The position numbers and the translations under genes were made by a program. Under the pieces are notes generated by a model. The model saw only the letters and a program-made list of their open reading frames with translations, was not told the origin of the DNA and did no database searches. DNA of 64,000 bases from Corynebacterium nuruki S6-4 (GTDB taxonomy: Bacteria; Actinomycetota; Actinomycetes; Mycobacteriales; Mycobacteriaceae), in contig NZ_CP042429.1 of NCBI RefSeq assembly GCF_007970465.1, forward strand, positions 868,001-932,000, given 5' to 3'. Below, piece by piece: positions 19,344-53,021 of this stretch. Position 1 is the first letter of the stretch, and every line of letters begins with the position of its first letter.

Positions 19344-20809
19344 TGTCTCCTGGTGCGGTTGGTCGAACGGTAGGGGGAATGGGACGGCGAGCGCGGTGGA
19401 CTGTCACCGCGGGCCGTGCGGTCGGGACCGTCGGGACGACGGGCACGGTCCGGCCGGCGGGTGACCGGCTCCCCGTACCGGCGGGCCCGGGGCCGGGCCT
19501 GGGCGCGCTGCTCGCCACCGGCGGTGTACGGACGGGGTTCCGGCAGCAGCATGATCCGGTCCAGCCACGGCCGGCCCTCGTGCTGCATCGACGAGATGGC
19601 GGCCGGCTCGTGCCGGGCACAGTTCATCAGCAGCCCCAGCGACGCCAGGGTGATGATCGCCGAGGTACCGCCCGACGAGATCAGCGGCAGCTGCACACCG
19701 GTGACCGGCAGCAGCCCGATGACGTAGCCCATGTTGAACATCGCCTGGAAGACGATACCGACGGTGAGCGTGGCCGCCATGAGGCGCAGGAAGGGGTCCG
19801 TCTGCCGGACCGCGGTCCGGATCCCGAACCAGCCGAGGAACGCGAACAGCACGATCACCAGTCCGGCGCCGATCCAGCCGAGTTCCTCGCCGATGATCGC
19901 GAAGACGAAGTCGTTGGTGGCCTCCGGCAGATAGGACCACTTCGCCCGGGACTGGCCGAGGCCCTCCCCGGTGAGCCCGCCGGAGGCGAGTGACAGGATG
20001 CCCTGCTTGGCCTGGTAGGCGTCGCCCTGGGAGTTGGCCTCACTGAAGCTCAGGGTCACGGCGTCCACCCAGGTGCTGAACCGCGCCCCACGGAAACTGT
20101 GCGTCAGGGTGAAGACGGCACCGATGACGGCACCGACCACGGCGCCGCCGACCAGGACCCGGGAGGACGCCCCGCCGAAGTACAGCATCGCGAAGACCAC
20201 CAGGCCGACCGACAGCATCATGCCGAGGTCGTTCTGGCCGAGGACGAGAGCGAGGATGAACACCGCGACGCACAGGAACGGCCCCATCCCGCGGAAGAAG
20301 GTCCGCTCCCGCCGCGCATGGACGGCCACCGAGGCCGAGCCCCAGACGGCGAGCGCCATCTTGCCGATCTCGGAGGGCTGGATGCCCACCGAACCGAGCC
20401 GGATCCACGACTTCGACCCGACCTCCGTGCCGCCGGTGCCGAACGGGGTGAGCACGAGCAGCAGGAGCGCGATCGCCAGGCCGAGCAGCCACGGCGAGTA
20501 GTCACGGATCTTCGTCGGACGCATCCGCAGCGCGATCCACATGGCGAACAGCCCGATGACCACCAGGACGGCCTGCTTGACGAAGGAGCTGAACACGCTG
20601 CCGCCGCCCTCGACCGAGGTCACCATCGACGACGACAGGGCCATCACCAGGCCGATCACCACCAGGGCGGCGGTGACGGTCATCAGCACCCGGTAGTCGA
20701 GCTGGGGCGTGTCGAGGAACCGCCGGGCCTTGCCCTGCAGGCCGACCCAGGGGGACGCCTCGGCACCCCGGGCGGGCCGTCCGGTCCGGCTGTCCGTGCG
20801 GTTGCTCAC
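19340..20809 (-). CDS. ftsW: Septal peptidoglycan polymerase FtsW (SEDS family)
   Basis: Membrane glycosyltransferase polymerising lipid II at the septum together with FtsI. 489 residues with about 10 membrane helices. SEDS hallmarks include SWIRLG, FQPSEIGK-type [16 protein letters not shown], and [12 protein letters not shown] near the end. A long Arg/Pro-rich cytoplasmic tail of about 85 residues follows. The GTG at 20809 has AGAGAGG at 8 bases; the frame continues far upstream but only as antisense to murD. Confidence 0.96.
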
Positions 20810-20814
20810 GTCGG

Positions 20815-22317
20815 CTACCTCTCTCCCCGTGGTTCGGTCTGCGGTTGGGTCCCTGATCCGGTCGCGAAGCGGGCGAAAAGGTCTCCACGCTGGGACATTC
20901 CAGCGTACATGTCGAGCGAGGCGGCGGCGGGAGCCAGCACGACCGTGTCGCCGGGGCCGGCGGCGCCGCGGGCGGCCTCGACCACCTCGCGCATCGCCAC
21001 GGTCGGATCCGTCTCGTCGATGACCGTGACCGGCAGGTCCGGGGCCGCGGCGGCGAGTGCGTCGGCCAGGATCCCCCGGTCGACGCCCAGCAGGACCGCG
21101 GCGCGCAACGTCGGCGCCACCTCCGCGACCAGATCGGCCACGGCGGCGCCCTTCAGCTGTCCGCCGGCGACCCAGACCACGTGACCGAGGCCGCGCAGTG
21201 CGGCGGACGCCGCATGCGGGTTGGTCGCCTTCGAGTTGTCGATCCAGGTCACCCCGTCGACGTCGGCGACGACCTGTCCCCGGTGCGCGGCGACGTGGAA
21301 GGACGCCAGTCCCCGTCCGACGGCACCGGCGGCCACGCCGGCGGCGCGGGCCAGTGCGGCGGCCGCGGTCGCGTCGGCGACACCGGCGGGTCCGGCCGGG
21401 GACAGCCCGGTGGCCGCCGCGAGGTCGGTGAGGTCGCCGGAGGTCGTGTCGAGTTCGACGATCCGTCCGTCGCGGACGCCGGTCACGGTGGTCAGCCCCG
21501 GCACGGCCGCACCGGCCGCACCGGCCGCACCGGCCGCACCGGCAGGGTCGCCGAGGGTGAAGCCACGCCGCTCCCCGGTGACGACGCCCTCGCGGGCCGC
21601 CTGGGCGAGCACCGCCGGGTCGTCGAGCGCCAGTACGGCGACCGTCCCGGTCAGTGCCCGCGCCTTGTCCGCGGCATAGTTCGCGAAGGATCCGTGCCAG
21701 TCGAGGTGGTCGTCGGCCAGGTTGAGTACGCAGCCGGCGTCCGGGGCAAAGTCCGGGGCCCAGTGCAGCTGGAAACTCGAGACCTCCGCGGCGAGCACGT
21801 CGGTGTGCGGTTCGCTGAGCAGTGCCTCGCCGGGCGGCGTCCCGATGTTCCCGACTGCCTCGGCGGCCCGTCCGTCGGCCACGAGGATGCTGTGGAGCAT
21901 GCCCGTCGCCGTGGTCTTGCCGTTGGTCCCGGTGACCGCGAGCCAGGTCCGCGGCGCGCCGAACAGGCCCGCCCGGTCGGCGAGCCACGCGGCCTCGATG
22001 TCGCCGATGACCGGCACCCCGGCCTGTGCGGCCGCGACGAGCAGTGCCGAGTCAGGCCGCCAGCCCGGCGAGGTCACGACGATGTCGGTCTCCCCGAGCA
22101 TCCCGGTCGCGGTGGCCACATCGACCGGCCGGCAGCCGGTCTCCGTGGCCAGCGCCCCGCGTGCGGTGGCGTTGTCGTCGGCGACGGTGACGGTCGACGG
22201 CAGCCCGGCGAGCATCCGTGCCACACCGCGGCCGGCCACGCCGGCCCCGGCGATCAGGACCCTGCCGTGGTCGAGGTGGTCGACGAGCGTGCGGTCAGCT
22301 GCGTGTGTCGTGTCCAT
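20815..22317 (-). CDS. murD: UDP-N-acetylmuramoylalanine--D-glutamate ligase
   Basis: Adds D-glutamate to UDP-MurNAc-L-Ala. It has 500 residues: an N-terminal Rossmann fold (VLIAGAGVAGRG), the ATP-binding GTNGKTTATGM, NLADDHLDWHG, and WIDNSKATN in the C-terminal domain. A Gly-Ala-Ala repeat from 9-base tandem repeats near 21510-21545 is an insertion between domains, probably disordered. Length is slightly above the usual ~450. It starts 15 bases after the mraY stop. Confidence 0.96.
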   Translation of the reverse strand: MDTTHAADRTLVDHLDHGRVLIAGAGVAGRGVARMLAGLPSTVTVADDNATARGALATETGCRPVDVATATGMLGETDIVVTSPGWRPDSALLVAAAQAGVPVIGDIEAAWLADRAGLFGAPRTWLAVTGTNGKTTATGMLHSILVADGRAAEAVGNIGTPPGEALLSEPHTDVLAAEVSSFQLHWAPDFAPDAGCVLNLADDHLDWHGSFANYAADKARALTGTVAVLALDDPAVLAQAAREGVVTGERRGFTLGDPAGAAGAAGAAGAAVPGLTTVTGVRDGRIVELDTTSGDLTDLAAATGLSPAGPAGVADATAAAALARAAGVAAGAVGRGLASFHVAAHRGQVVADVDGVTWIDNSKATNPHAASAALRGLGHVVWVAGGQLKGAAVADLVAEVAPTLRAAVLLGVDRGILADALAAAAPDLPVTVIDETDPTVAMREVVEAARGAAGPGDTVVLAPAAASLDMYAGMSQRGDLFARFATGSGTQPQTEPRGER

Positions 22318-22332
22318 GTGTTCCCGGTCCTC

Positions 22333-23436
22333 CTAGAATGACGCCGAGCCGAGCCAGTCACTGTAGAACAGTGCCACCCCCGCCATCGCGAAGATCGCGG
22401 AGAGCAGCCAGAACCGGATGACGACCGTCGTCTCCGCCCAGCCGCCGGCCTCGAAGTGGTGGTGGAAGGGGGCCATGCGGAACACCCGGCGTCCGGTGGT
22501 CTTGAAGAACAGCACCTGGATGACCACGCTGGCGGCCTCCATGACGAACAGGAAGCCGACGAGGACCATGAGCAGCTCGGTGCGCGAGGCGACGGAGAGG
22601 CCGGCGACGAGGCCACCGAGGGCCAGGGAGCCGGTGTCGCCCATGAAGATCTTCGCCGGGGCGGCGTTCCACCACAGGAATCCGAGGCAGCCGCCGAGGC
22701 CCGCCGCGGCGAGCATCGCCAGGTCCAGCGGGTCGCGCACCGCGTAGCAGGACGCGGTCGGGTCCGAGCCGCAGGAGTTGCGGAACTGCCAGAACGTCAG
22801 CACGACGTAGGACGCCAGCACGATGCCGGTCACCCCGGCGGCCAGGCCGTCGAGACCGTCCGTGAGGTTCACCGCGTTCGACCAGGCGGAGATCACCAGG
22901 TAGATGAAGATGAGGAAGATGACGGTCCCGATGACCACCCCGCCGATCCTGAGGTCGAAGGAGTCGATGTCACGGAGGAACGACAGCTTCGACGAGGCCG
23001 GGGTGAGGCCCTGGTCGTCGGGGAACTTCAGCACGAGGATGCCGAAGACGACGGCGGTGACGAGCTGGCCGGCGAGCTTCGCCTTGGCGTTCAGCCCGAG
23101 GTTCCGGCCCATGACCAGCTTGATGTAGTCGTCGGCGAAACCGAGTCCGCCGAGGGCGAGGGTCAGTCCGAGGACGATCCACCCGGAGGCGCCGGGTCCG
23201 GTGCCGTCGGAGGTCACCAGCCCGACGACGACGGCGGCGAGGTAGCCCACGACGAGGGCGAGGAGGATCGCCAGGCCACCCATGGTCGGGGTGCCGCGCT
23301 TACGCAGGTGCGACTTCGGGCCCTCTTCGCGGATCTCCTGGCCGAGTCCCTCCGCGGAGAACCGTTTGATGAGGTACGGGGTGAAAAAGATCGCGACGAG
23401 GAACGACACGACCCCGGCGGTGATGATCTGCAGCAT
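22333..23436 (-). CDS. mraY: Phospho-N-acetylmuramoyl-pentapeptide transferase
   Basis: Integral membrane enzyme making lipid I. 367 residues with about 10 membrane helices; catalytic regions [31 protein letters not shown] and HHHFEAGGW are intact. It begins 3 bases after the murF stop, with GGAG inside the murF end. Confidence 0.98.
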
Positions 23437-23439
23437 TGT

Positions 23440-24938
23440 CTACTTAGTCTCCTTGTCGTGGAGGCCGTCGGCGACCCGCCACAGACCGTCAGAATAGGAC
23501 GCCTTGACCAGCACGACGTCCCCGGGGTGCAGAACCGTGGCGAGATGTGCGACCGCCGCGTCAGTGTCCGCGGCACGGTACACCGTCACGCCTTCCGCCC
23601 GGGCGGCGTCGGCCAGGGCGTCGAGCTCGGCACCCTCGCCGACGACGACCGCCTCGCCCACCCCGCGGGTGGACAGGTAGTGCCCCAGTGCGGTGTGCTC
23701 GGCGACCGTCCCCTCCCCCAGTTCGGCCATCCGGCCGAGGACCGCCACGGCCTCCGCGCCGGTGCGTCCGGTGGCGGTGTAGGCCAGCGCGTCCACCCCG
23801 GCCCGCATCGAGTCGGGGTTGGCGTTGTAGGAGTCGTTGATGACCGTCACCCCGTCGGCCCGGGTGCGGACGTCCATCCTGTTCGCGGACGCCGCGACAT
23901 GCCCGTCGAGGGCTGCGGCGATCTGTGCCGCGTCGAGACCGCACTCCATACCGACAGCGGCGGCGGCCAGGGCGTTGCCGACATTGTGGATGCCGAAGAC
24001 GCCCAGGTGGATCTCCACCGGCTCCCCGGCGGGGTGGTGCAGCCGGAACGAGGGCCGGGCGACATCGTCGAGCCGGATGTCGGTGGCCACGTACTCGATG
24101 CCCCGGTCCAGGGCGTCCGCCGCCGAGGAGAACCGGACGATCCGGGCGGTGGTCCGCCCGGCCATCGTCATGACCAGGTCGTCGTCGGCGTTGAGCACGG
24201 CGATACCGCCGTCGGCCGCCGCGGGCAGTGCCTCGACCAGTTCACCCTTCGCCTGCGCGATCGCCTCCCGCGAGCCGAACTCGCCGAGGTGGGCGGTACC
24301 CACGTTGAGTTCCACCCCGATCCGGGGCGGCGCGATCCGCGCGAGATGGGCGATGTGGCCCTGTCCGCGGGCGGACATCTCCGCGACCAGGAAGCGGGTG
24401 GTCCGTCCCGCCTTCAGGGCGGTGTACGGGTGCCCGATCTCGTTGTTGAAGCTGCCGGGCGGGGCGACGGTCTCGCCGGCGCGGTTGAGCACCGCGCCGA
24501 TGAGGTCCTTTGTCGAGGTCTTGCCGGCCGATCCGGTCACTCCGACGACGGTGAGTCCGTCCTCGGCGGTGAGCACGTCGGTGTTGTACCGGGCGAGTCG
24601 GCCGAGTGCGGTGAGCACCCGTTCGCCGTCGCCGTCCGGGTCGTGTTCGAGGTAGGAGGCGTTGCGCTGTTCGCCCGGCGTGGATTCCACCGGCGGGCAG
24701 AGCAGGGCCGGGACACCGACCCGGTGGCCGACGAGAGCCAGGGCCGCACCGTCGGCGAGGGCGCCGGGGACGAAGTCGTGACCGTCGACGCGGGCGCCCG
24801 GCAGCGCCAGGTAGACCCCGCCGGGGACGATCCGGCGGGAGTCGAATTCCACGGGCCCGGTGACCGGTGTCGCGGGATCCGCCCCGTCGACGAGGGTCCC
24901 GCCGGTGACCTCGGCGATCTGTGCCGCCGTCATCTCGA

Positions 24939-24942
<4 letters not shown>
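23440..24942 (-). CDS. murF: UDP-N-acetylmuramoyl-tripeptide--D-alanyl-D-alanine ligase
   Basis: Adds D-Ala-D-Ala to UDP-MurNAc-tripeptide. 500 residues with GSAGKTSTKDLI as the ATP loop, NVGTAHLGEFGSRE, and NDSYNANPDSM in the substrate/ATP region. The ATG overlaps the murE stop by 4 bases (ATGA). Confidence 0.97.
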
Positions 24943-26617
<1,675 letters not shown>

Positions 26618-26621
<4 letters not shown>

Positions 26622-28531
26622 TGTGCCTCCAGAGTCATTCGGGGTGCCGCCTCCGGTGACAGCGGCACGTTGTAGTGGTCGAGCAGCCACGACATGACGT
26701 CGTGGAACAGGGGTGCGGCGGACTGGCCACCGGTGCCGTCCGTGCTGCGCTCCGGATTGTCGAGCATGATGCCGACGACGTACCGGGGGTCATCGGCCGG
26801 GGCCATGCCCGCATAGGTTATCCAGTACGCCGAGTTCGAGTAGGCACCGGTGTCCGGGTCGATCTGCTGGGCGGTGCCCGTCTTACCGGAGGTCTGGTAG
26901 CCCTCGATCGCGGCGGCGGGTGCCGTGCCCTGCTGGACGCCGGTCGGATCATCCTGGTTGATTCCGCGGAACATGTCCACCACCGTCCGGGCGGTCTGCG
27001 GGGAGACCACCTCGGTGGTGGCCGGCTCCGGCTGCGGGATGTCCGTCCCGTCCGCGGTCGTCACCTTGTCGATCAGGGTCGGCTGCACCCGGACGCCGCT
27101 GTTGGCCATGGCCTGGTAGATGCCCGTCATCTGGACGAGGTTCATCGACATGCCCTGCCCGATGGGCAGGTTCGCGAACGTCCCGCCCGACCACTGGTTG
27201 AGGTCGGGGACGTAGCCGGAGGTCTCCCCCGGCAGGCCGAGGTCGAGCGACTGCCCGATACCGAACTTCTTCAGGTACTTGTCGTAGCTGTCCTGACCGA
27301 CCCGGTCGGCCAGCATGAGCGTCCCGACGTTCGAGGACTTCGAGAACACGCCGGTGGTCGTGTACGGCACGGTGCCGTGTTCCCACGCATCCTTCACCGT
27401 CACACCGGACATCTCGATCTGGCCGGGGACCTGCAGCACCTCGTCCGGGGTCGTCTTCCCTTCCTGGATCGCCGCGGCGGCGGTCATCACCTTCGCCACG
27501 GAGCCGGGCTCGTAGGCGGCCTCCACTGTCCGGTTGCCGAACTCCTTGCCCTGGTCCAGCTGCTTGTCCAGGTCACCCTGGGGGTTGATGGTGTCCGAGG
27601 TCGCCATCGCGCGGATCTTTCCGGTCTTCGCGTCCATCACCACGACCGAGGCGGAATCCGCCCCGGATTTCTCCTTGGCCTGCTGGGTGGCCTGCTGGAC
27701 GTACGTCTGGGCGTCGACATCCAGGGTCAGGTGGTAGGTGTCGCCGTTGACCGACGGATGCTCGTCCCGGGTCGACCCCGGCACCACGTTGCCCGACCCG
27801 CCGATGTCCACGGTCCGGGAGCCGTCGATGCCCTGCAGTTTCGCGTCCTGCGACAGCTCCAGGCCGAACTGGCCCTCGTTGTCCCGGCTGATCTTGCCGA
27901 TGACGTTGGCCGCCACCGCCCCGTTGGGGTACTGCCGGACGTCCTGCCGCTCCGCGGTGATCTCCGGGAACTTCTTGGCGACCGCCTCCGCCTTGTCGGG
28001 GTCGACGTCACGGACGAGGACCTCGTAGGTCGAGTCGGAGGTGAGCTTGCGCCGCAGGTCCTCCGGGTTGATCTGTGCACCGTCACCGAGCATGCCCGGC
28101 ACCTCACGGATGATCTGTTCGAGGCGTTCGGTCGGTTCCGCGACATCGTCGGGATCCAGCTCGTGACGCTCCTCCATCCAGGGCAGCAGGTTCTTCGGGT
28201 GGACCGACAGTGCCCGCGCATCCATCGTGTAGGCGAGCTCCCGGCCGTCGTCGTCGACGATCGCGCCCCGTTTCGCCGGGTCCGCCAGCACCGCGGTGCG
28301 CTGCTGGGACGCCTCCGCCGACAGGGACGGACCCTCGATGACCTGGAGCTGCACGAGCCGGGCGACGAGGACCACCGTGCAGACGATGACCACGACGATC
28401 ACCGCCGAGCCGCGCCAGCTGAACCGGCCGGCCGAGGGGTCGACCTGGAGCCAGCTGTTCATCGACCGGTCGGGCTCCGACGTCCGCTGGGAGGGACGCG
28501 TGGGGCGGTACCGGTCCCGGTCCGAAGGCAC
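26618..28531 (-). CDS. ftsI: Septal transpeptidase FtsI (class B penicillin-binding protein)
   Basis: Cross-links septal peptidoglycan as the partner of FtsW. 637 residues: a short cytoplasmic tail, a membrane anchor (about residues 42-60), the class B pedestal domain starting PAKRGAIVDDDG, and the transpeptidase domain with active-site SVAK (Ser344), SSN and KTGTAQ. The GTG start follows GGGAG at 7 bases. The intergenic region upstream carries five GTnAC half-sites at 11-base period, a probable operator of the cell-envelope regulator MtrA. Confidence 0.97.
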
Positions 28532-28626
28532 AGTGCGGCTCCCTTCTGGAGGTGGACGGGGTACGGGTTCCTATTGTGGACGCCGACGGCACCCGGAGGC
28601 CTGATTGCCCGGGGCGTGTCGGATCA

Positions 28627-28675
28627 GTCACGGATCAGTCACGGATCAGTGACAGGCCGGTGACAGGTGAGTGAC
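28627..28675 (-). promoter_or_regulatory. Five GTnAC half-sites at exact 11-base period upstream of ftsI (MtrA-like array)
   Basis: On the given strand GTCAC, GTCAC, GTGAC, GTGAC and GTGAC start at 28627, 28638, 28649, 28660 and 28671, each separated by 6 bases, with a degenerate GTAC at 28682. Half-sites on the same helix face fit a response regulator binding cooperatively as tandem dimers. It lies about 95-145 bases upstream of ftsI. The same half-site spacing is found upstream of both NlpC/P60 genes. Confidence 0.6.
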
Positions 28676-28678
28676 AGG

Positions 28679-29410
28679 TCAGTACGGCAGCTGCCCGTTT
28701 CCTGCCGGGGCCGCCTGGGCCGCCGGGGCCGCCGGCGCTGCGGGAGAAGCCGGAGCAGCAGCGTCCGGCTGGGGCGCGGCCGGAGCGGCATCGGTCGGGG
28801 CGGAGGGCACCAGGCCCGGGACCTGTCCGGTCCGTCGCGGGTCACTGGTCGGACCACTGCGGGTGACATCACCGTTGACGTCGGTGACGTCCCTGTTCTT
28901 GTCGGCGTCCGGGGCACGCTTTTCGTCGACGCGGTTGCCGTCGGCGTCGAGGACGCCGGTCTGCCCCGGCACGACCATCCCCAGCCGGGCGGCCTCGGCC
29001 GCGAGGTGCTGGGTCGACCCCGCCTCCTTGACGTCCCGGTTGAGGGTCTCGATCTGGTCCGACAGGGTGTCGCTGGTCCCCTCCGCCTCGGCGAGCTGGA
29101 AGGACTGCTCGGTCGTCTTGCCCGACAGGTACATCGTCACCGCCACGCCGACAGCCACCACGACACAGATCAGTGCGAAAGTCTTGAGCAGCATCCGGTT
29201 TCCGCGTCCGGCGGTCGCCACCCGGCGGCCTCGGACGGTGGTCACCTGGAGAGATCCGGGACGGCGCAGTGCGCTGCGGTGGACCCGGCCCGCCCGGCCC
29301 GCCCGGTCGACACCCTCGCGCGTCGCACCGGTTCCGGTGCGGGGACGCCTCGTCCCGGTCGTCGTCCGCCGGTCGGTGACGCTGCCGGTCGTCGTCGTAG
29401 CCGTCGTCAT
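28679..29410 (-). CDS. ftsL: Cell division protein FtsL
   Basis: Small bitopic divisome scaffold. 243 residues: a Thr/Arg-rich cytoplasmic tail (1-72), one membrane helix (about 74-95), a short leucine-zipper-like coiled coil (about 100-145), then an Ala/Pro-rich tail. Sequence conservation is weak in this family; position between rsmH and ftsI, topology and the GLMVVPGQ-like RLGMVVPGQ block support the call. The ATG follows GAGAGG at 7 bases. Confidence 0.9.
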   Translation of the reverse strand: MTTATTTTGSVTDRRTTTGTRRPRTGTGATREGVDRAGRAGRVHRSALRRPGSLQVTTVRGRRVATAGRGNRMLLKTFALICVVVAVGVAVTMYLSGKTTEQSFQLAEAEGTSDTLSDQIETLNRDVKEAGSTQHLAAEAARLGMVVPGQTGVLDADGNRVDEKRAPDADKNRDVTDVNGDVTRSGPTSDPRRTGQVPGLVPSAPTDAAPAAPQPDAAAPASPAAPAAPAAQAAPAGNGQLPY

Positions 29411-29450
29411 GGGGCAACCTCTCTGTCGGTATCAGTCTCGGTCGGTGTCG

Positions 29451-29480
29451 GTCAGGGTCGGTCAGGGTCGGTCAGGGTCG
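29451..29480. repeat. 10-base tandem repeat, three copies
   Basis: GTCAGGGTCG is repeated three times without interruption in the 74-base gap between rsmH and ftsL, with degenerate flanking units. It could be slippage product or an operator with helical periodicity. Confidence 0.55.
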
Positions 29481-29484
29481 GTGG

Positions 29485-30519
29485 TCAGTTGTCGAGGATG
29501 CGGCGGACCGCGCGGACCCGGACCGGTGCCGCCCGGGGGTTCCGGGCGATCTCTTCATCGTCGGCGGTCTCCGCGCCCCGGGTGATGAGCTCGAAGTGGG
29601 CCGCAGTCCCCGGGAGATCCACGGGGAGCCCGGGTGGGGTGCGGTTCGCCGTCAGTCCGGCGAGCGCCTTCTTGACGATGCGGTCCTCCAGAGACTGGTA
29701 GGACATGAACACCGCCACCCCGCCGCGCCGCAGCCGGTCGGCCGCCGCGGGGACGGCCGCGGCGAGCGAATCCAGTTCGCCGTTCACCTCGACCCGCAGG
29801 GCCTGGAACGTCCGCTTCGCCGGATGCCCGCCGGTGCGGCGGGTGGCCGCCGGGATGGTCCGGTAGAGCAGGTCGACGAGACGGCCGGACCCGGTGAACG
29901 GTTCCTTCTCCCGTTCCCGCAGGACAGCAGAGGCGATCTTGCCGGCGAACCGCTCATCGCCGTAGGTCTTCAGGATCCGGGCCAGATCACCGTGCGAATA
30001 GGTGTTGAGGATGTCCGCCGCCGTCAGGGGCGCCGACGGGTCCATCCGCATGTCGAGCGGCGCATCCTGGGCGTAGGCGAAGCCGCGGTCCGGCTGGTCG
30101 AGCTGCATGGAGGACACCCCGAGGTCGAACAGGAACCCCGAGATCCCCGCGGTGGGGGTGTCCGACGGGATCCGTCCCTGTTCCGCCAGATCGTCGAGCG
30201 CCTCGCCGAGATCATCGAACCGGGTCCGGTAGGCGACGAACCGGTCCCCGAAACGGGCCAGGCGGTCCTCCGCCTGGGCGATGGCGTTGGGGTCGCGGTC
30301 CAGACCGACCACCACGGCGTCCGGGAACGTCTCGAGAAAAACCTCGGTGTGGCCGCCCGCACCGAGCGTGGCGTCCACGATGACCGGTGTCCTCGGTGCG
30401 TCGGCGGCCGTGACGCCGACCCCCACCAGCTCGACCATACGGTCGCGCATCACCGGGACGTGTCCGAACTCGCCGGAGACCCGGTGCGGGCGGGCGTCTC
30501 GCCCGGGGTTGTCGGTCAT
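29485..30519 (-). CDS. rsmH: 16S rRNA (cytosine1402-N4)-methyltransferase RsmH (MraW)
   Basis: SAM-dependent methyltransferase acting on the small subunit rRNA. 344 residues with HVPVM near the start, [11 protein letters not shown] as the SAM-binding glycine motif, [17 protein letters not shown], and [11 protein letters not shown]. It is the second gene of the dcw cluster; 215 bases without a gene separate it from mraZ. Confidence 0.97.
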
Positions 30520-30734
30520 GGTCCGGTCCTTTCACTGTCGTCGGTGGCTGGCTGGGAGCTGTCTGGATGGATGGCGGGGTGGCTGTGCGGGGTGTGTCCG
30601 GCCGAGTGGTGGAGGGACTGTGCACGGGGCCTCACCTGCACGGGTCCGTTTGACATCGGGGAAGTACATCAAACAGGTCGTCCGCGCAGATGAGGGCCGG
30701 CGCACGGTCCCCGTCCCGCAGAAGGTCGCACGTG

Positions 30735-31166
30735 TCACAACAGGTCGGCGATGTCCTCGGAATCTCCCTCGGCGAAGTCGTCCTCGTACTCCTCCTGGTA
30801 CCGGGACCACGCCTCGGCGTCCCAGATCTCCATGAAGTCGACGGATCCGATGACCACACACTCCCGCTCCAGCCCCGCGTAGCTGCGGTGCGCGGGAGAG
30901 AGTGTGATCCGCCCCTGCTTGTCGAGTTCCTGCTCGTCGGCGCTGGCCGCCAGCCGTCGGACATACGCCCTGGCCTTCGGGTTGGAGCGGGAGACTTTGG
31001 CCGCATTCCGTGCCCTGACCTGGAACTCCGCCCGCGGATGGACGGCGAGACTGTGGTCCTGGCCGTTCACGACGACCAGACCGTCCGCCAGCTCCTCCCG
31101 GAACTTCGCGGGCAGGGTGAGGCGACCCTTGTCATCGAGCTTCGGGGTGAAGGTACCGAAGAACAT
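30735..31166 (-). CDS. mraZ: Transcriptional regulator MraZ
   Basis: AbrB-fold regulator at the head of the dcw cluster that binds TGGGN repeats upstream of its own gene. 143 residues with two SpoVT/AbrB-like repeats: [16 protein letters not shown] and [15 protein letters not shown]. The ATG at 31166 follows AAGGAG at 8 bases. Four matching DNA repeats lie 88-120 bases upstream, so autoregulation is expected. Confidence 0.97.
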
Positions 31167-31253
31167 GTCGACGGCTCCTTCCTCCCGCTGCTCCTGCCGT
31201 GTCGTGTCTCTCTGTGGAATTGTCCCGGAACCACCACTCGCGCTCCGTTGCGC

Positions 31254-31286
31254 CCCACCATACCCCACTTTCCCCCACTCATCCCA
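31254..31286 (-). promoter_or_regulatory. MraZ operator: four TGGG repeats
   Basis: CCCA on the + strand (TGGG on the coding strand of mraZ) occurs at 31254, 31264, 31274 and 31283, with 10, 10 and 9 base spacing. This is the known MraZ-binding arrangement of TGGGN separated by 5 bases. Confidence 0.85.
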
Positions 31287-31372
31287 GCGATATTTCCGCC
31301 CGGACGCCGACCGACACTGTCGAAGGCACAACAATATCCCGATAACCAGCAACTATGACAGAACCATGTGAG

Positions 31373-31386
31373 TGGGGAAACGTGGG
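31373..31386 (+). promoter_or_regulatory. MraZ-like box pair on the + strand
   Basis: TGGGGAAACGTGGG: two TGGG at 10-base spacing, oriented towards the permease gene. Confidence 0.4.
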
Positions 31387-31539
31387 ACACCCGGTGCGTC
31401 GCCCGATTCTTCCGCCGCCCGGCCCGGCAAGCGGCACCGGGCAGAATCTCCGTCGCCGCAGGTCACCGCACCCCTCCCCGACCACCGCGCCCGACCGCTC
31501 CGCACGACACCCGTCATTCCAGCCCTGCCGGGAACGGAG

Positions 31540-31553
31540 TGGAGGAAAGTGGG
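31540..31553 (+). promoter_or_regulatory. MraZ-like box pair (TGGAGGAAAGTGGG)
   Basis: It matches the central part of the mraZ operator (TGGGGGAAAGTGGG) in 13 of 14 bases, but in the opposite orientation and towards the permease. Confidence 0.4.
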
Positions 31554-31717
31554 AGATCCGCGGCCGCGGCCCGGGCACACCCGTCATCGCCCGCCGCGGA
31601 TCGGCCTGATCTGCTGTGACGCGCATCACCGCGGTCACAGCCACCCACATTCTGAAGATCCGCGCAGAGAACCGCTGCAGGACCACTCAGGTTCGGATAC
31701 AGTGCCTTACGTTGACT

Positions 31718-31740
31718 GGCCGGACAGCCCGTGTCCGGCC
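31718..31740 (+). other. Hairpin in the permease leader
   Basis: GGCCGGACA and TGTCCGGCC form a 9-base stem with a 5-base loop, followed by GAGAAGGAGG. It may shape the 5' leader of the permease mRNA. Confidence 0.35.
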
Positions 31741-31752
31741 CGGGAGAAGGAG

Positions 31753-31839
31753 GTGCCGCGGAACCACCACGCGCACGATTCCGGCGGACACGCAGGTCCG
31801 CATACGACGACACAGAGAGTGAGCTCTCGTGAACACTGA
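31753..31839 (+). other. Possible His-rich leader ORF overlapping the permease start
   Basis: GTG at 31753 opens 28 codons rich in His (N-H-H-A-H, then further His) and ends in a TGA that overlaps the permease GTG by 11 bases. GGGAG lies 6 bases upstream. This could couple translation to the permease, whose own ribosome binding site is weak; chance is also possible. Confidence 0.2.
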
Positions 31840-33385
31840 CACACCTTCACAACCCGCACATCCGACATCCGGGGCGGGGAAGAACGGACCACCGGCCGGG
31901 GACGGAAACCCCCGGCTCACCATCGGCCACGTCAATGTGGTCTCACCGAAGAGAATCCGGCCCGCGATCAAGGGGACAGCGGTCGGAAACTTCATGGAAT
32001 GGTACGACTTCGGTATCTACGGCTACCTGACGGTCACCATGACCTCCGTCTTCACCGACGGACTTCCCGAACAGTGGCAGCTGCTGGCCGTCATGTTCGG
32101 TTTCGCGGTCAGCTACCTCGTCCGCCCGATCGGCGGCATGGTGCTCGGACCACTGGGGGACAAGATCGGCCGACAGAAGATCCTCTACGTCACGATGGCG
32201 ATGATGGCCCTGTCGACCGCCCTGATCGGCCTGCTGCCCACGGCGGCAGCCGTCGGCGGCTGGGCACTGGTCCTGCTGTACCTGCTCAAGCTCATCCAGG
32301 GCTTCTCCACCGGCGGCGAATACGCCGGTGCGACAACCTACATCGCCGAATTCTCCTCCGACAAGCGTCGCGGCTTCTTCGGCTCCTTCCTCGACATGGG
32401 CTCCTACATCGGCTTCGCCGCCGGTGCCACGGTGGTCGCCGTGACCACCTGGATCCTCGAGGCCGCCGTCGGGCCGGACGCCATGGCCGACTTCGGCTGG
32501 CGCATCCCGTTCCTCACGGCCATCCCGCTGGGGATCATCGCCGTCTACCTGCGGACCCGGATCCCGGAGACCCCCGCGTTCGAGGACAACATCGACAACG
32601 AGACCGAGCAGACCGTCAAGGACCCGGACGACCCCTACGCGCGACTCTCGCTGCTCGGCGTCATCCGGCACCACTGGCGTGCCCTGCTCATCGGCTTCGC
32701 CATCGTCGCCGCGACGAACACCGCCGGCTACGCGTTGACCAGCTACATGCCGGTCTACCTCGAGGAACAGATCGGAATGCACTCGGCCTCCGCGGCCGCG
32801 GTGACCGCCCCGATCCTCGTCGTGATGTCGCTCCTGCTGCCGCTGGTCGGTGGCTGGAGCGACCGGGTGGGACGCAAGCCCGTCTACATCGCCGCGGTCG
32901 TCTCGACCCTGGTCCTGCTGGTCCCGGCGTTCCTCATCATGAACACCGGCTCGCTCCCGGCGGTCATCATCGCCCTCGCGATGGTCGCCGTGCCGACCGG
33001 GCTCTACGTGGCACTGTCGGCCTCCGCACTGCCGGCCCTGTTCCCGACCGCGTCGCGGTACAGCGGGATGGGTCTGTCCTACAATTTCGCGGTCTCGATC
33101 TTCGGTGGCACCACGCCGCTGGTCACCCAGTTCCTGCTGCAGCAGACCAACCTGAACATCGTTCCGGCGCTGTACATCATGGTGTTCGCGGTCATCGCCG
33201 GCGTCGCGCTGCTGTTCATGACGGAATCCTCCCGTCGTCCGCTGCCGGGATCCTTCCCGACGGTCGAGTCCGACGAGGAGGCCGAAGCACTGATCCGGCG
33301 CCATGAGGAAGACCCCTTCTTCGACACGGTCGGTATGCCGTTCACCGAGGAGGAGAAGAAGGAGGCCCTCGCCACCGCACGGTGA
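31829..33385 (+). CDS. MFS metabolite/proton symporter, ProP-like
   Basis: Major facilitator permease of 518 residues with about 12 membrane helices after a ~40-residue polar N-terminus. Motifs AVGNFMEWYDFGIYG, GPLGDKIGRQK and IQGFSTGGEYAGA are those of the ProP/ShiA/KgtP branch, which imports osmolytes, dicarboxylates or shikimate-like acids; the substrate cannot be set from sequence. An in-frame TGA 9 bases upstream prevents an earlier start. Its insertion between mraZ and the DUF3040 gene breaks the order seen in M. tuberculosis. Confidence 0.88.
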   Translation: MNTDTPSQPAHPTSGAGKNGPPAGDGNPRLTIGHVNVVSPKRIRPAIKGTAVGNFMEWYDFGIYGYLTVTMTSVFTDGLPEQWQLLAVMFGFAVSYLVRPIGGMVLGPLGDKIGRQKILYVTMAMMALSTALIGLLPTAAAVGGWALVLLYLLKLIQGFSTGGEYAGATTYIAEFSSDKRRGFFGSFLDMGSYIGFAAGATVVAVTTWILEAAVGPDAMADFGWRIPFLTAIPLGIIAVYLRTRIPETPAFEDNIDNETEQTVKDPDDPYARLSLLGVIRHHWRALLIGFAIVAATNTAGYALTSYMPVYLEEQIGMHSASAAAVTAPILVVMSLLLPLVGGWSDRVGRKPVYIAAVVSTLVLLVPAFLIMNTGSLPAVIIALAMVAVPTGLYVALSASALPALFPTASRYSGMGLSYNFAVSIFGGTTPLVTQFLLQQTNLNIVPALYIMVFAVIAGVALLFMTESSRRPLPGSFPTVESDEEAEALIRRHEEDPFFDTVGMPFTEEEKKEALATAR

Positions 33386-33424
33386 CGGGGAATCCTGCCG
33401 CACCGACGGCGACCCTCCCCTGCC

Positions 33425-33505
33425 AAGGTGGGCCCCGGTCGCTCCGGGTCAGTCATCCGGAACCGTTGTTCCGGGTCTGACCGGACAGCCCGGGCCCACC
33501 TTTTT
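33425..33505 (+). terminator. Terminator of the permease gene
   Basis: Outer arms AAGGTGGGCCC (33425-33435) and GGGCCCACCTT (33492-33502) pair perfectly, with nested inner stems (GGTCAG/CTGACC and CCGGAAC/GTTCCGG) and a T-run at 33501-33505. Confidence 0.85.
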
Positions 33506-33551
33506 CCGGTTCCGCCGGAGCCCCGCCGGACTCGGCCTCCGGACTCGGCCT

Positions 33552-33612
33552 CCGGGTGTGCGTCGGCAGGGTGGATTTTCCCTGCCGGGCCACCCTGCCG
33601 ACGCACACCCGG
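33552..33612. repeat. 23-base perfect inverted repeat with 15-base loop
   Basis: Arms at 33552-33574 and 33590-33612 are exact complements; the loop is 33575-33589. No T-tract follows on either side. It lies between the two terminators of convergent genes and directly next to REP-like copy A. Confidence 0.75.
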
Positions 33613-33618
33613 CACCGG

Positions 33619-33681
33619 TTGACCCGGTTCCGCCGTTTCCGGGGGACTGGAACATCCGAATCGGGTCAGCTCGGTACACCG
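33619..33681 (+). repeat. REP-like palindromic repeat, copy A
   Basis: Begins TTGACCCGGTTCCGCC and ends AATCGGGTCAGCTCGG plus TACACC. The ends are inverted repeats of each other (TTGACCCGgTT versus AAtCGGGTCAg). It shares two nearly identical blocks of 29 and 27 bases with the copy at 54258. Confidence 0.7.
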
Positions 33682-33747
33682 ACGTCGTGGCGACGGATGA
33701 CACCGGCACCGACGCACCCCCGCGCCGCCCGCCCCGGTACGCAAAAA

Positions 33748-33775
33748 GGGTCACAGGGCGGCTGCCCTGTGACCC
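33748..33775 (-). terminator. Terminator of the DUF3040 gene
   Basis: A 12-base perfect stem (GGGTCACAGGGC and complement) with a 4-base loop; AAAAA before it gives a T-run on the minus strand. Confidence 0.9.
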
Positions 33776-33797
33776 CACCGCGGTCAACGACCGTCGC

Positions 33798-34184
33798 TCA
33801 CTCGAAGCGGCGGCGGAAGCTGTCCTCCATCCGGGAGGCGAGGCCGCCTGACGCGTCCTTTCCCCGACCGGCCGTGGCGTTCCCGGTCCCGTTCCTCTTC
33901 CGGCGCGACGCTGAACCGCCCGACCGGAAGGCCAGCATGCCGCCGGCGAACATGACGAGGAAGCCGACGACCCCCAGCAGGACGAACCAGAGGCTCGTCT
34001 GCGAGAGCACCATTCCGGCGATCAGGATGCACAGACCCAGCAGCAGGACACCGATGGACCTGATGTTGAAGGACACGCCCTCGTTACCGACCTTGGCGGT
34101 ACGGTCCGCCAGGCCCGGATCGTCCGCGATCAGCGCCTGCTCGATCTCCTCCAGCATGCGACGTTCCTGCTCTGACAGGGCCAC
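33798..34184 (-). CDS. DUF3040 membrane protein
   Basis: A 128-residue actinobacterial DUF3040 protein: MALSEQERRMLEEIEQAL at the N-terminus, two membrane helices (about residues 45-65 and 68-88) and a basic C-terminal tail. Function is unknown; the gene is a neighbour of the dcw cluster in mycolata (Rv2169c-like). GTG 34184 is chosen because GGGGAGG lies 6 bases upstream; the ATG two codons earlier abuts that site. Confidence 0.85.
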   Translation of the reverse strand: MALSEQERRMLEEIEQALIADDPGLADRTAKVGNEGVSFNIRSIGVLLLGLCILIAGMVLSQTSLWFVLLGVVGFLVMFAGGMLAFRSGGSASRRKRNGTGNATAGRGKDASGGLASRMEDSFRRRFE

Positions 34185-34329
34185 GATCATCCTCCCCGTG
34201 GGGTCTCGGTTGGGTGGGTAACTTGCTCACCCTGTACAACGTCCGACGTCTCGTTTTCGTTCCCGGACCTGTCACGGGAGCTGCGGATGTCGTCTCCCGT
34301 TCATCCTACCCCAGCAACCGGAGAACCCC

Positions 34330-34794
34330 TCATGCCGCGTCTTCGCCGAGATAACCGGTACGGATCCTCACGGCATCGACAAAATCACAGGCCCGTGCGT
34401 AGATCCGGTCCGCCGCCTCCGGCGCAAGTCCGTGCTCGAGTCCCATCTCGACCCGGGCGACGTACCGTGCCTGTTCATCGAACTCGGCGGCCCACTCCGA
34501 CATATCCGGGGACAACGTCCGCAACCGCACCCAGGCACTGCCGGACGGGAGCCGGCGGCGCTTCTTGCGCGCGGTCTGGATGACCGCCCCGGCCGCCCGC
34601 AACGCCGCACGGTACGCCCAGGTGATCCGGTCCTCGGGACGGTCCTCACTCCGGCTGCGCTCGAGCAGTCGCTCCGCCTCCTCGACGAATGCCGCCGGCG
34701 ACGCCGATCCCTCCCGCGACCGGAGCCGTGCGACATTGCCCGCCGCGGCGTACCGCGCCGCCCCGTTCCGGCCTGCTGCCCTGTCCTGTGCCAT
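34330..34794 (-). CDS. SAV_6107-family HEPN-domain protein
   Basis: A mainly helical protein of 154 residues matching the actinobacterial SAV_6107 HEPN family: [14 protein letters not shown], then a basic stretch and WVRLRTLSPDMSEWA. HEPN folds often bind or cut RNA, but this family keeps no clear R-x4-6-H catalytic motif that I could see, and its role is unknown. ATG 34794 follows AAGGAG at 8 bases; the frame is open 45 bases further upstream. Confidence 0.8.
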   Translation of the reverse strand: MAQDRAAGRNGAARYAAAGNVARLRSREGSASPAAFVEEAERLLERSRSEDRPEDRITWAYRAALRAAGAVIQTARKKRRRLPSGSAWVRLRTLSPDMSEWAAEFDEQARYVARVEMGLEHGLAPEAADRIYARACDFVDAVRIRTGYLGEDAA

Positions 34795-34872
34795 GTCACC
34801 TGCTCCTTCCGGTTCTGACCCGGACACTACGACCGCCACCGGACACCGGCCGCACCTCCGACCGGTTTAATA

Positions 34873-34884
34873 GAACATGCGTTC
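34873..34884. promoter_or_regulatory. Candidate LexA (SOS) box GAACATGCGTTC
   Basis: GAAC-N4-GTTC within TAGAACATGCGTTCTG, the core of actinobacterial/Bacillus SOS boxes. It overlaps a TTTAAT -10-like box and lies about 55 bases upstream of the preferred GNAT start. Confidence 0.45.
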
Positions 34885-34936
34885 TGTCGTGTGGAATACC
34901 GCCCCACCAGAGGTCGACCTTTGGCACGATGGAACT

Positions 34937-35542
34937 GTGCAGAACACCATCAGCGTCACAGCCGTCACCCCGCGGGACTTCCTCTTCCGGATCGACGACC
35001 TCGTCGACCTCCACCTCACCGCGATGGGCTATGACCGGGCGGCGTTCCATCAACGTCGCCTGCTGTGGAGTTCCAATGCCAGGAACCGCGGCTTCACCGG
35101 CGTCGTCGCCCTGGAACACCCCGACGGCACCACCCCGGACCCGGCGGACCCGTCCCAGCGGGTGGTCGGCGTCGCCTACGGCTTCCCCGGTTTCCGGACC
35201 TCCTGGTGGTACCGCGAGGTCCACCGCGGCCTCCGCGGCAGCGGGTTGGACGCCGGACAGGCCGGCGCCGTCCTCGCCGACTACGACGAGGTCTCCGAGG
35301 TCCATGTCCTCCCCGAGTTCCAGGGCCACCGCATCGGGCACCGCATGCTCGCGCAACTGCTTCCCCGGCTGACCTCGGCCACGGCCATGCTGTCGACTCC
35401 GGAGGTCCCCGACGAAGGTAACGCGGCCTGGGGACTCTACCGGGCACTGGGATTCCGCGACGTACTGCGGAACTTCCGCTTCACCTCGGACGACCGCCCC
35501 TTCGGCATCCTCGCCCGCCCCCGAGGGGACGTCCCGGACTGA
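34937..35542 (+). CDS. GNAT-family N-acetyltransferase
   Basis: A 201-residue GNAT protein; the acetyl-CoA binding strand-loop-helix is seen as VLPEFQGHRIGHRMLAQL at about residues 120-137, and AAWGLYRALGFRDVLRNF matches the usual C-terminal end. The M. tuberculosis gene in this position is the GNAT Rv2170. GTG 34937 gives a normal family N-terminus; ATG 34877, 20 codons upstream, is an alternative leaderless start overlapping a LexA-like box. Substrate unknown. Confidence 0.82.
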   Translation: MQNTISVTAVTPRDFLFRIDDLVDLHLTAMGYDRAAFHQRRLLWSSNARNRGFTGVVALEHPDGTTPDPADPSQRVVGVAYGFPGFRTSWWYREVHRGLRGSGLDAGQAGAVLADYDEVSEVHVLPEFQGHRIGHRMLAQLLPRLTSATAMLSTPEVPDEGNAAWGLYRALGFRDVLRNFRFTSDDRPFGILARPRGDVPD

Positions 35543-35592
35543 GCCGGGACCGCTACCGGGCCCTGCCGGGCCCTATCGGGCACTGCCGGGCT

Positions 35593-36573
35593 CTACCGGA
35601 CCATGTCCTGGCCGAGCTCCGGCCCCCACGCCGGTGCCATACCGAGGTTGTGGAGCACCTCCTGGGTGGCCCGGACGTTGTTCATCGTCACGAAGTGGAT
35701 ACCCGGCACCCCCTCCGCGATGAGCCGCTCGGCCATCGCTGAGGTGACCTCGATCCCCGCCCGGCGGACCGCCGCAGCGTTCTTCTCGCCGTCACCCGCG
35801 GCGGCGGTGAGCAGCGGCTCCACGACCGAGGACGGCAGCGTCCCCCCGGAGAGCTCCTGCTGACGTTCCAGAGAGCGCAGCGAGGTGATCGGCATGAGTT
35901 CGGCGATGATCGGCTTCGCACCGTGCACCGGATCGGCGGCGGCCAGCCGGTCACGCAGCCGCAGGTAGGAATCCACGTCGAAGAAGATCTGGGTGATCGA
36001 GTACGCCGCCCCGGCGCGCAGCTTGTCGATCGTGTAGCGGGTGTCGTCCTCGAGGGAGGCGGCGTGCGGGTGGCCCTCGGGGAAGGACGCGATACCGATC
36101 TCGAACTGCTCGCACTCCGGCATCGAGCGGACCAGTTCGATCAGCTCGACCGCATGGCTGAGCCCACCGGGTTCGGCGGTCCACTCACCGTTGATGTCGC
36201 CGGGCGGGTCCCCGCGCAGCGCCAGCAGGTTGGTCAGCCCCAGCGACGCGAACTCGCGCAGGATCCCCCGGAGTTCCTCCTCGGTGTGCTGGACCAGGGT
36301 GAGGTGCAGCAGGGTGGTGAGCGGCTTCGTGGCGAGCCGGGCGGCGACCCGCTCGGTGCGGGTCCTGCTGGATCCGCCCGCCCCGTAGGTCACGGACACG
36401 AAACTGGCCCCCAGGTCGTGGTAGGCCTCGGCGGCGTTCCACAGCCGCTGCTCGGCCGCATCGTCCCGGGGCGGCATGAACTCGACGGAGAACGGCACAC
36501 GCCCCGGAGTACCCCACTTCAGGGTGTCGGTGACGGGGACCTGCATGCTGGGGGCGCCGGGAACAGAAGTCAT
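35593..36573 (-). CDS. metF: 5,10-methylenetetrahydrofolate reductase
   Basis: FAD enzyme supplying 5-methyl-tetrahydrofolate for methionine synthesis. 326 residues in a TIM-barrel pattern: FSVEFMPPRDDAAE with the catalytic Glu, VSVTYGAGGS, LLALRGDPPGD, and AYSITQIFFD. The ATG at 36573 has TAGGAT 8 bases upstream and no Shine-Dalgarno sequence; the longer open frame runs into the divergent gene. In the M. tuberculosis order this position is Rv2172c. Confidence 0.93.
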   Translation of the reverse strand: MTSVPGAPSMQVPVTDTLKWGTPGRVPFSVEFMPPRDDAAEQRLWNAAEAYHDLGASFVSVTYGAGGSSRTRTERVAARLATKPLTTLLHLTLVQHTEEELRGILREFASLGLTNLLALRGDPPGDINGEWTAEPGGLSHAVELIELVRSMPECEQFEIGIASFPEGHPHAASLEDDTRYTIDKLRAGAAYSITQIFFDVDSYLRLRDRLAAADPVHGAKPIIAELMPITSLRSLERQQELSGGTLPSSVVEPLLTAAAGDGEKNAAAVRRAGIEVTSAMAERLIAEGVPGIHFVTMNNVRATQEVLHNLGMAPAWGPELGQDMVR

Positions 36574-36581
36574 ACCGTGGA

Positions 36582-36587
36582 ATCCTA
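36582..36587 (-). promoter_or_regulatory. -10 box of metF (TAGGAT)
   Basis: TAGGAT ends 8 bases before the metF ATG on the minus strand; probable leaderless transcript. Confidence 0.5.
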
Positions 36588-36618
36588 ACCTGTCCTCCTC
36601 ACCGCCGGAGTGTCCCCC

Positions 36619-36624
36619 TACTAT
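36619..36624 (+). promoter_or_regulatory. -10 box of polyprenyl synthase gene (TACTAT)
   Basis: TACTAT predicts a transcription start near 36631 and a leader of about 34 bases. It lies back to back with the metF -10 box. Confidence 0.45.
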
Positions 36625-36664
36625 GGAGGCGATTCCCCGTCCCCGCCACCGGAAAGTGACCCCG

Positions 36665-37780
36665 ATGCCAGAGAGCCTCCAGCTCAGTCCGCTGTCCGCC
36701 GTCCCCACCGAGGTGGACGCCGCCCTCGGCACGTTCTTCCGCGACCGTCACGCCGACTACGACGCGATCGACCCGGTCGTCGCCGACGGGATCGACGCCC
36801 TCGAGGAGTTCGTCACCGGCGGCGGCAAGCGGCTGCGGCCGGTCTTCACGTGGGCGGGCCTGCGCGCGGTGGTCGAATCCGGACGTGGCACCGGACTGCC
36901 GGGCACACCGGATCAGCTCATGACCGCCGCAGCCTCACTGGAGTTCATCCAGGCGTGCGCCCTCATCCACGACGACATCATCGACCACTCGGACACCCGC
37001 CGCGGCCACCCCACCACCCACCGGCGGTTCGCCGCCCGCCACCGTGCGGCCGGCTGGCCCGGTTCCGCCGAGGACTACGGCGAGAGCCTCGCCATCCTCG
37101 TCGGGGACCTCGCCTTCGCGTGGGCCGACGACATGCTGGCGGACGCCGGTCTCGACAGTGCCGCCCTGCAGCGTGCCCGGGAGCCCTGGCGGGCGATGCG
37201 CACCGAGGTCATCGGCGGACAGATGCTCGACATCGCCCTGGAGAACAGTCCCCTCGACGCCGCGCCGGATCCGGAGGCCGCATTGAAGGTCAACCGGTAC
37301 AAGACGGCCGCCTACACCGTCGAGCGGCCCCTCCACCTCGGCGCCGCACTCGTCGGTGCGGACGCCGCGACCGTCGACCTGCTGCGCACCGCCGGCCGCG
37401 ACATCGGACTGGCCTTCCAGCTCGAGGACGACTACCTGGGCGTCTTCGGGGATCCGGCGGTCACCGGCAAGGCCGCCGGCGACGACCTGCGGTCAGGTAA
37501 GCGCACGTTCCTGCTCGCCGGGGCGCTCGCCGCCGCCGACCGGGATGATCCGGCCGCGGCACGACGGCTGCGCGGCGGTGTCGGCACCGTCACCACCGAC
37601 GCGGAGGTGGATGCCCTGCGGGACATCATCCTGACCTCCGGAGCGGTCGACCAGACCACCGACCTGGTCCGCACCCTCACCGACCGTGCGGTGGCCCTGC
37701 TGCGCGGCACCTTCGCCGGCACCCCCGTCCTCGACGAACTCATCGCCGTCGCCGAGAAGCTCACCGACCGCAGGAGCTGA
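36665..37780 (+). CDS. idsA: Polyprenyl (geranylgeranyl) diphosphate synthase
   Basis: trans-Isoprenyl diphosphate synthase of 371 residues. GGGKRLRP binds isopentenyl diphosphate; the first Asp-rich motif HDDIIDHSD (Asp103 region) and the second, LEDDYLGVFGD, bind magnesium and allylic diphosphate. Product chain length (C15-C25) cannot be read reliably. The stop is 1 base before mptA, which needs polyprenyl-phosphate mannose, so the pair forms an operon like Rv2173-Rv2174. The ATG has GGAAAG upstream. Confidence 0.93.
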   Translation: MPESLQLSPLSAVPTEVDAALGTFFRDRHADYDAIDPVVADGIDALEEFVTGGGKRLRPVFTWAGLRAVVESGRGTGLPGTPDQLMTAAASLEFIQACALIHDDIIDHSDTRRGHPTTHRRFAARHRAAGWPGSAEDYGESLAILVGDLAFAWADDMLADAGLDSAALQRAREPWRAMRTEVIGGQMLDIALENSPLDAAPDPEAALKVNRYKTAAYTVERPLHLGAALVGADAATVDLLRTAGRDIGLAFQLEDDYLGVFGDPAVTGKAAGDDLRSGKRTFLLAGALAAADRDDPAAARRLRGGVGTVTTDAEVDALRDIILTSGAVDQTTDLVRTLTDRAVALLRGTFAGTPVLDELIAVAEKLTDRRS

Positions 37781-37781
37781 C

Positions 37782-39869: not shown

Positions 39870-39876
39870 GGCTTCA

Positions 39877-39882
39877 ACCTTA
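39877..39882 (-). promoter_or_regulatory. -10 box of the Rv2175c-type gene (TAAGGT)
   Basis: It ends 7 bases before the GTG at 39869; probable leaderless transcript. It lies 14 bases from the pknL -10 box, back to back. Confidence 0.5.
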
Positions 39883-39896
39883 TCCCGTCCTCCCCG

Positions 39897-39902
39897 TATA
39901 AT
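39897..39902 (+). promoter_or_regulatory. -10 box of pknL (TATAAT)
   Basis: Full consensus TATAAT; transcription would start near 39909, giving a leader of about 70 bases with AGGAGG at 39963. Confidence 0.6.
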
Positions 39903-39981
39903 CGCCCGGTACCCTCGGGGACGGGGACAACACCGACGAACACCGACCGGACAGAGAATCACAGGAGGCGAGGCGGCTACC

Positions 39982-52145: not shown

Positions 52146-52233
52146 AGGAAAGTTCCTCTTCAATGTGGTGGACATGAGGTGAGACGGAGAACTGTGGGCG
52201 GCGATGCCGTCACACATATATTGCCACAACAGC

Positions 52234-52249
52234 GTGACCGAAATGTAAC
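52234..52249. promoter_or_regulatory. GTGAC-N6-GTAAC direct repeat (MtrA-like) upstream of the coiled-coil NlpC/P60 gene
   Basis: Two half-sites at 11-base period, spacer CGAAAT, 89 bases upstream of GTG 52145. Confidence 0.5.
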
Positions 52250-52994: not shown

Positions 52995-53021
52995 GTCACG
53001 AGAAGATTACGAAATGGTCAC
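52995..53021 (-). promoter_or_regulatory. Triple GTnAC-type repeat upstream of nlpC (MtrA-like)
   Basis: GTCAC (52995), ATTAC (53006) and GTCAC (53017) are separated by 6 bases each, giving an exact 11-base period, 57-83 bases upstream of the nlpC ATG. Confidence 0.55.

Follow-up and report, generated by a model that had tools for sequence, protein, structure and literature searches.

We analysed 64,000 nucleotides of Corynebacterium nuruki S6-4 DNA (the window) and describe here the 147-base gap between ftsL and ftsI, both encoded on the negative strand. The ORF of ftsL (28679..29410, 243 amino acids) matched the NCBIfam model FtsL_Actino with 81 bits (cut-off 55) and ended in a TGA at 28679-28681; that of ftsI (26618..28531, 637 amino acids, GTG start) encoded a penicillin-binding transpeptidase with domains PF00905 and PF03717. 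Read on the ftsI strand, six units of 11 bases filled exactly the interval from the ftsL stop codon to the sequence GACAC, which was followed by GCC. Unit 1, TGACCTGTCAC (28671..28681), includes the TGA of ftsL. Unit 2, TCACCTGTCAC (28660..28670), unit 3, CGGCCTGTCAC (28649..28659), and unit 4, TGATCCGTGAC (28638..28648), come next; unit 5 (28627..28637) repeats unit 4 exactly, and unit 6, TGATCCGACAC (28616..28626), the presumed ancestral unit, has a conserved GACAC box as its 3' end.

This box, GACACGCC (28613..28620, negative strand) with the WhiA-like core GACAC, is conserved upstream of ftsI in relatives: [AG]ACACGC was present at 24 of the 30 nearest loci, the studied genome counted among them, and the longer form [AG]ACACGCC in 22 of 90 gaps, all 22 within the 30 nearest loci. 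In the 330-base stretch that precedes the ftsL stop, the longer form occurred in 6 of 90. The block G[AG]ACAAT lay 40-44 bases after [AG]ACACGCC in 16 of the 22 loci and at 10 bases in two; it was absent in that form from four, own included, the window having CCACAAT at a distance of 41 from the GACAC box (counted by hand). Judged by this spacing in relatives, ACAATA (28572..28577, negative strand) is the putative -10 element of ftsI, and the GACAC box together with the ACAAT block looks like the ftsI promoter core; a promoter scan gave no promoter-like match for ftsI. Closer to the gene, AGAAGGGAG (28539..28547, negative strand) is from its sequence the likely ribosome-binding site.

Two further features of the region were observed. 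In the window (28572-28620) and at loci L061-L086, the GACACGCC box was followed by an inverted repeat (GCCGGG..CCCGGC in many) and then by ACAAT at a nearly fixed distance, and the WhiA-like box of this conserved block possibly overlaps a terminator. The rsmH-ftsL gap contained a second short tandem array (29438-29482), TCGGTCAGGG repeated about 4.5 times with a 10-base period and with no GTNAC in the unit, which points to an expansion of short repeats in gaps of this kind.

Phasing of the repeat units

On the positive strand, the five units nearest to ftsL presented GTNAC cores: GTCAC at 28627 and 28638, and GTGAC at 28649, 28660 and 28671. A preliminary description of this DNA had noted their exact 11-base steps within the ftsL-ftsI gap, and both motif counts and repeat finders bore this out, the latter recovering the same tandem array as the core search. 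All five upstream copies keep GT.AC, and columns 1, 2, 4, 5 and 7 of the 11 are invariant. As GTSAC reads alike on both strands, the core alone does not reveal on which of them the direct repeat runs. The same description had counted a degenerate GTAC at 28682 as a sixth half-site; this is really the C-terminal Tyr codon of FtsL plus the stop, an LPY-stop end found also at loci L061, L062, L064, L073 and L075. The true sixth in-phase unit lies at the opposite end of the array, where GTGTC (28616-28620) reads GACAC on the ftsI strand.

The array was the sole chain of at least three GTNAC at 11-base spacing within the 64 kb and is, as previously stated, confined to the gap. When the window was simulated 200 times with an order-1 Markov model and all periods from 6 to 40 were allowed, the longest GTNAC chain had three members in 26 runs and two in 174, versus five in the array; since this null ignores tandem duplication, the likely origin of the array, the result rules out only a coincidence of scattered sites, not duplication.

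Origin of the array

From a genus search spanning 242 genomes, own among them, the ftsL-ftsI gap was compared in 90 (own included): the 30 nearest loci and 60 further ones. The nearest relative in the list had an FtsI identity of 71%. Among named sequences the one close match to FtsI came from C. falsenii (62%), and L086, a locus of a same-genus genome, carries upstream of ftsI the same letters as the C. falsenii record. The longest open frame served to locate the gap, which for L188 and L238 came to more than 500 bases and may be wrong. Genome G203 was left out: it is the closest relative by the homologue of L106 (92%; see below), but its contig ends inside ftsL before the gap. In this genome the contig (L280:1-30) opens within a 12-base repeat that contains GTCAC and apparently codes for the C-terminal part of FtsL.

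None of the 89 relatives examined had two or more GTNAC at 11 bases in the gap, versus five in the studied genome, and this absence is a result that the preliminary description had itself named as speaking against its proposal. Two GTNAC in the gap were found at 12 bases in L197 and L200 and at 13 bases in L238, L241 and L243. In L063 and L065 the ftsL stop was directly followed by a single copy, TGATCCGACACGC, the counterpart of unit 6, and in L073 by TGATCCGGCAC. Because two relatives keep one copy right at the ftsL stop, the array most likely grew in this lineage by tandem duplication of the 11-base segment from the ftsL stop to GACAC, an origin that the comparison supports well. In the simplest history, the unit would have been duplicated in tandem, with GACAC changing to GTGAC and then to GTCAC.

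Such duplication alone accounts for the phasing and for much of the core conservation. Polymerase slippage within this short non-coding gap could have generated the copies of the ftsL-stop/GACAC segment, leaving an array with no function of its own, an explanation that we consider on balance unlikely and by no means negligible. It agrees with the identity of units 4 and 5, with the two subtypes formed by the units, as after recent duplication, with the short tandem array of the neighbouring rsmH-ftsL gap, and with the lack of the array in all 89 relatives examined. Against it, the three differences within subtypes all fall in columns 1-3 and none in the other eight, for which the chance is about (3/11)^3 = 0.02 on a post hoc count, and GTnAC is common to all five copies at the very period that response regulators use.

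Genome-wide distribution of the 11-base triple

The whole genome was searched for three GTNAC at 11 bases with at most one mismatch, with the reversed pattern as control. There were 16 forward places versus 6 for the reversed pattern; four of the 16 belonged to the array and 12 were separate loci, two of them coding (L095 and L097). Peptidoglycan hydrolase genes lay downstream of the triple at five of these 12 loci: an Rpf1-type gene (L090), an RpfB-type gene (L100), a GH25 gene (L094) and two NlpC/P60 genes within the window. The sites at L094 and at 52223 overlap the longest mechanical ORF, and there the later start was taken. At five other loci no hydrolase gene started at the site: L093 neighboured a VTT-domain gene, L098 a permease gene and L099 a DUF4259 gene, the L101 site was on the 3' side of an M23 peptidase gene, and that of L096 sits behind a pitA-like gene.

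The 11-base triple was enriched upstream of peptidoglycan hydrolase genes, a class with known MtrA targets and of the cell-wall kind whose enrichment would, according to the preliminary description, support its proposal: 5 of 12 loci versus 0 of 22 control loci with 10- or 12-base spacing (Fisher p 0.003, a guide only, as the classes were set after the neighbours had been seen and 9 of the 14 controls at 12 bases were coding). As controls served every distinct locus with 10-base spacing (8 of 8) and 14 of the 30 with 12-base spacing; their genes were found by a GC3 rule, and some neighbours were scanned with Pfam, the rest being judged from translations. Two of them weaken the contrast: L174 (10 bases) adjoins a gene of PF00756, a family that we take to include mycolyltransferases, and L186 (12 bases) lies about 510 bases from a BacA gene. 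The 10-base spacing gave 9 forward places versus 8 reversed. The 12-base spacing gave 36 versus 17, many of them in coding sequence and probably four-codon repeats, so that it is not a clean control.

MtrA and its published sites

MtrA is encoded in this genome at L103, whose product matched the NCBIfam equivalog with 364.5 bits (cut-off 300) and the solved M. tuberculosis MtrA structure 2gwr with an E value of 1.4e-101. The OmpR-type C-terminal domain had six matches in the genome. L102 bears the GlnR N-terminal domain (PF21695), and GlnR sites also have an 11-base period.

Published MtrA sites take the form of direct repeats that recur every 11 bases (PMC6265350, PMC3353115), composed of 9-base repeats with 2 bases between them in M. 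tuberculosis (PMC6265350) and of 8-base repeats with 3 between in C. glutamicum (PMC3353115). The M. tuberculosis MtrA regulon includes ftsI by ChIP-seq, and a gain-of-function MtrA raises ftsI expression (PMC6265350). In C. glutamicum the targets given are nlpC, mepA, mepB and rpf2 (PMC3353115), and a search of one review of that species found no mention of ftsI. The motif given for Dietzia MtrA from CUT&Tag is TCG-rich, not GTnAC. The background of the preliminary description, i.e., that MtrA binds direct repeats and controls cell-wall genes, agrees with the sites in these passages.

With the MtrA operators of M. tuberculosis, C. glutamicum and Streptomyces, as these passages describe them, the array shares directly repeated GTnAC-like half-sites and an 11-base period; the targets of those operators include cell-wall genes, in M. 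tuberculosis also ftsI. It differs in having five half-sites, where the published consensus has two and the best MtrA-type cases of its own genome have three or four (nlpC, and rpf1 with steps of 11, 11 and 10). Its linkers are unlike those of the conserved rpfB and nlpC sites, and none of the 89 relatives examined shares it.

Scores against conserved MtrA-type promoters

The yardstick was a set of three half-sites, GTGACcatttcGTAATcttctcGTGAC (52995..53021, negative strand), the presumed MtrA operator upstream of the NlpC/P60 gene 52345-52938. A near-match triple (52223..52249, negative strand) lies upstream of the second NlpC/P60 gene, which is listed as 51012-52229 from a TTG and has a likely ATG start about 50 bases further in. 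The stretch 52993-53084 is a single nlpC promoter with two separate MtrA-type elements, the three half-sites and an ATAAC/GTAAC pair, and holds the best matrix scores of the window (see below).

For conservation, 81 genomes were searched with each of the rpfB and nlpC proteins and 30 loci were kept for each, own included. The two patterns, written after viewing the sequences, each recurred in 26 of the 29 relatives' loci; the nlpC pattern ended in a GAGAC half-site, not GTGAC, in 20 of its 26 loci. The rpfB promoter (L100 and relatives L109-L137) carries, as a GTTACCGTATYGTKAY-like repeat, a strong MtrA-type site.

A matrix made from the relatives (64 sites, 43 distinct: 26 rpfB, 26 nlpC and 12 second nlpC pairs) ranked the best pair of the array (28636, positive strand) seventh of 127,962 positions, with 10.1 bits. 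The six positions above it were all in the promoters of the two nlpC genes, one of these orthologous to training sites. The next background match came close, with 9.4 bits, and the better MtrA-type sites reached 13.5-26, i.e., 24.5, 16.6 and 13.5 at nlpC and, as best scores in the 5-kb loci, 26.0 at the M23 gene, 25.5 at rpfB, 18.4 at the GH25 gene, 15.7 at rpf1 and 15.1 at the DUF4259 gene; at rpf1 and the M23 gene the best match differs from the triple itself. The matrix is not very specific, L191-L194 and L211 scoring 12-14 upstream of ftsI with no GTNAC pair.

A candidate operator upstream of ftsI

We tentatively read the array as a multi-half-site operator of an OmpR-type response regulator, with MtrA as the best candidate, that would have arisen by tandem duplication and would raise ftsI transcription; taken as a whole, we place this reading slightly short of an even chance. 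The five upstream copies carry GTnAC where unit 6 has GACAC and follow each other at about one turn of DNA; relative to the putative transcription start of ftsI they would lie at roughly -55 to -115, and MtrA would act by binding the tandem half-sites on one face of the helix. An operator function is plausible. The sequence alone does not decide which regulator would use it, and MtrA is our best guess. It leads because the middle base of GTnAC is free, because of the genes near which the pattern occurs across the genome, and because a link between MtrA and ftsI is known.

The preliminary description had likewise proposed a multi-dimer MtrA operator on ftsI. The presence of MtrA, the 11-base repeat form and the enrichment at hydrolase genes uphold this in part; the relatives without the array, the odd linkers, the low pair score and the match to PhoR (see below) count against it, as does the fact that duplication by itself would give the phasing. 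A bolder version, in which slippage from the ftsL stop and a WhiA-type box would have given birth to a phased operator, GACAC turning into GTnAC and adding a second regulator to ftsI, and in which the number of copies might act as a rheostat that differs between strains, appears to us distinctly unlikely.

If the MtrA reading is true, the locus offers a readable case of a regulatory array arising beside an essential division gene: relatives still have the single-copy form, and the two ends of the array are marked by a stop codon and a conserved promoter box. The control of ftsI by MtrA that is known from M. tuberculosis would then extend to one Corynebacterium, having arisen there independently. 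A neutral array would be a short tandem repeat of the ordinary sort, and because that outcome keeps considerable likelihood we rate the importance of the finding as moderate.

Instead of MtrA, the corynebacterial phosphate response regulator PhoR might bind the array and tie ftsI to phosphate supply, an idea to which we give little credence. C. glutamicum PhoR prefers CCTGTGAA-3-CCTGTGAA (PMC3353115), an 8-base repeat with a 3-base linker, and three array units read CCTGTCAC with 3-base linkers, matching this consensus at 12 of 16 positions (MtrA consensus, 10 of 16); the other two, units 4 and 5, have no ACAG core. A likely PhoR, L106, is encoded in the genome, the name coming from PhoR-like repeats upstream of L106 and of its homologues in relatives, and the protein scores above no family cut-off. 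A PhoR matrix was built from presumed phoR promoters, chosen by eye in 20 of 29 relatives; at the level of pairs it gave the array 4.5 bits and rank 45, versus rank 7 for MtrA. With the half-site model from these promoters, no other place in the window scored as high as the array, either at five copies (14.3) or at three (13.0). With that for MtrA the array was best at five copies (11.3) and second to nlpC at three, the two models differing in length and their scores not being on one scale. The literature passages on these regulators assign no phosphate role to ftsI.

Very improbably, the array multiplies a WhiA-type box, to be used by WhiA and the WhiB homologue WhcD. The WhiA motif of Streptomyces is GACAC, and in C. 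glutamicum WhcD acts with WhiA on the ftsZ promoter (PMC6282962, PMC3781837); unit 6 ends in GACAC, a sequence that the nearest relatives have also kept upstream of ftsI, but the five upstream copies are all GTSAC. That the array acts as RNA, through an attenuator hairpin from GUCAC:GUGAC pairing, is hardly credible, and we rejected a structured leader: GTCAC is complementary to GTGAC and the array alone folded somewhat better than shuffles (z -1.70, 12 of 200 as good), but the whole gap folded no better than shuffles (z 0.07), no Rfam family matched in 20000-40000 and no terminator-like site was found.

Two other loci stood out. At L101:3415 a score of 26 falls just upstream of the M23 peptidase gene, which from this sequence match is likely a further MtrA target. 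At L099:2408-2502, MtrA-type sites lie upstream of the DUF4259 gene, a few kb before mtrA (L103), and possibly serve in feedback on mtrA.
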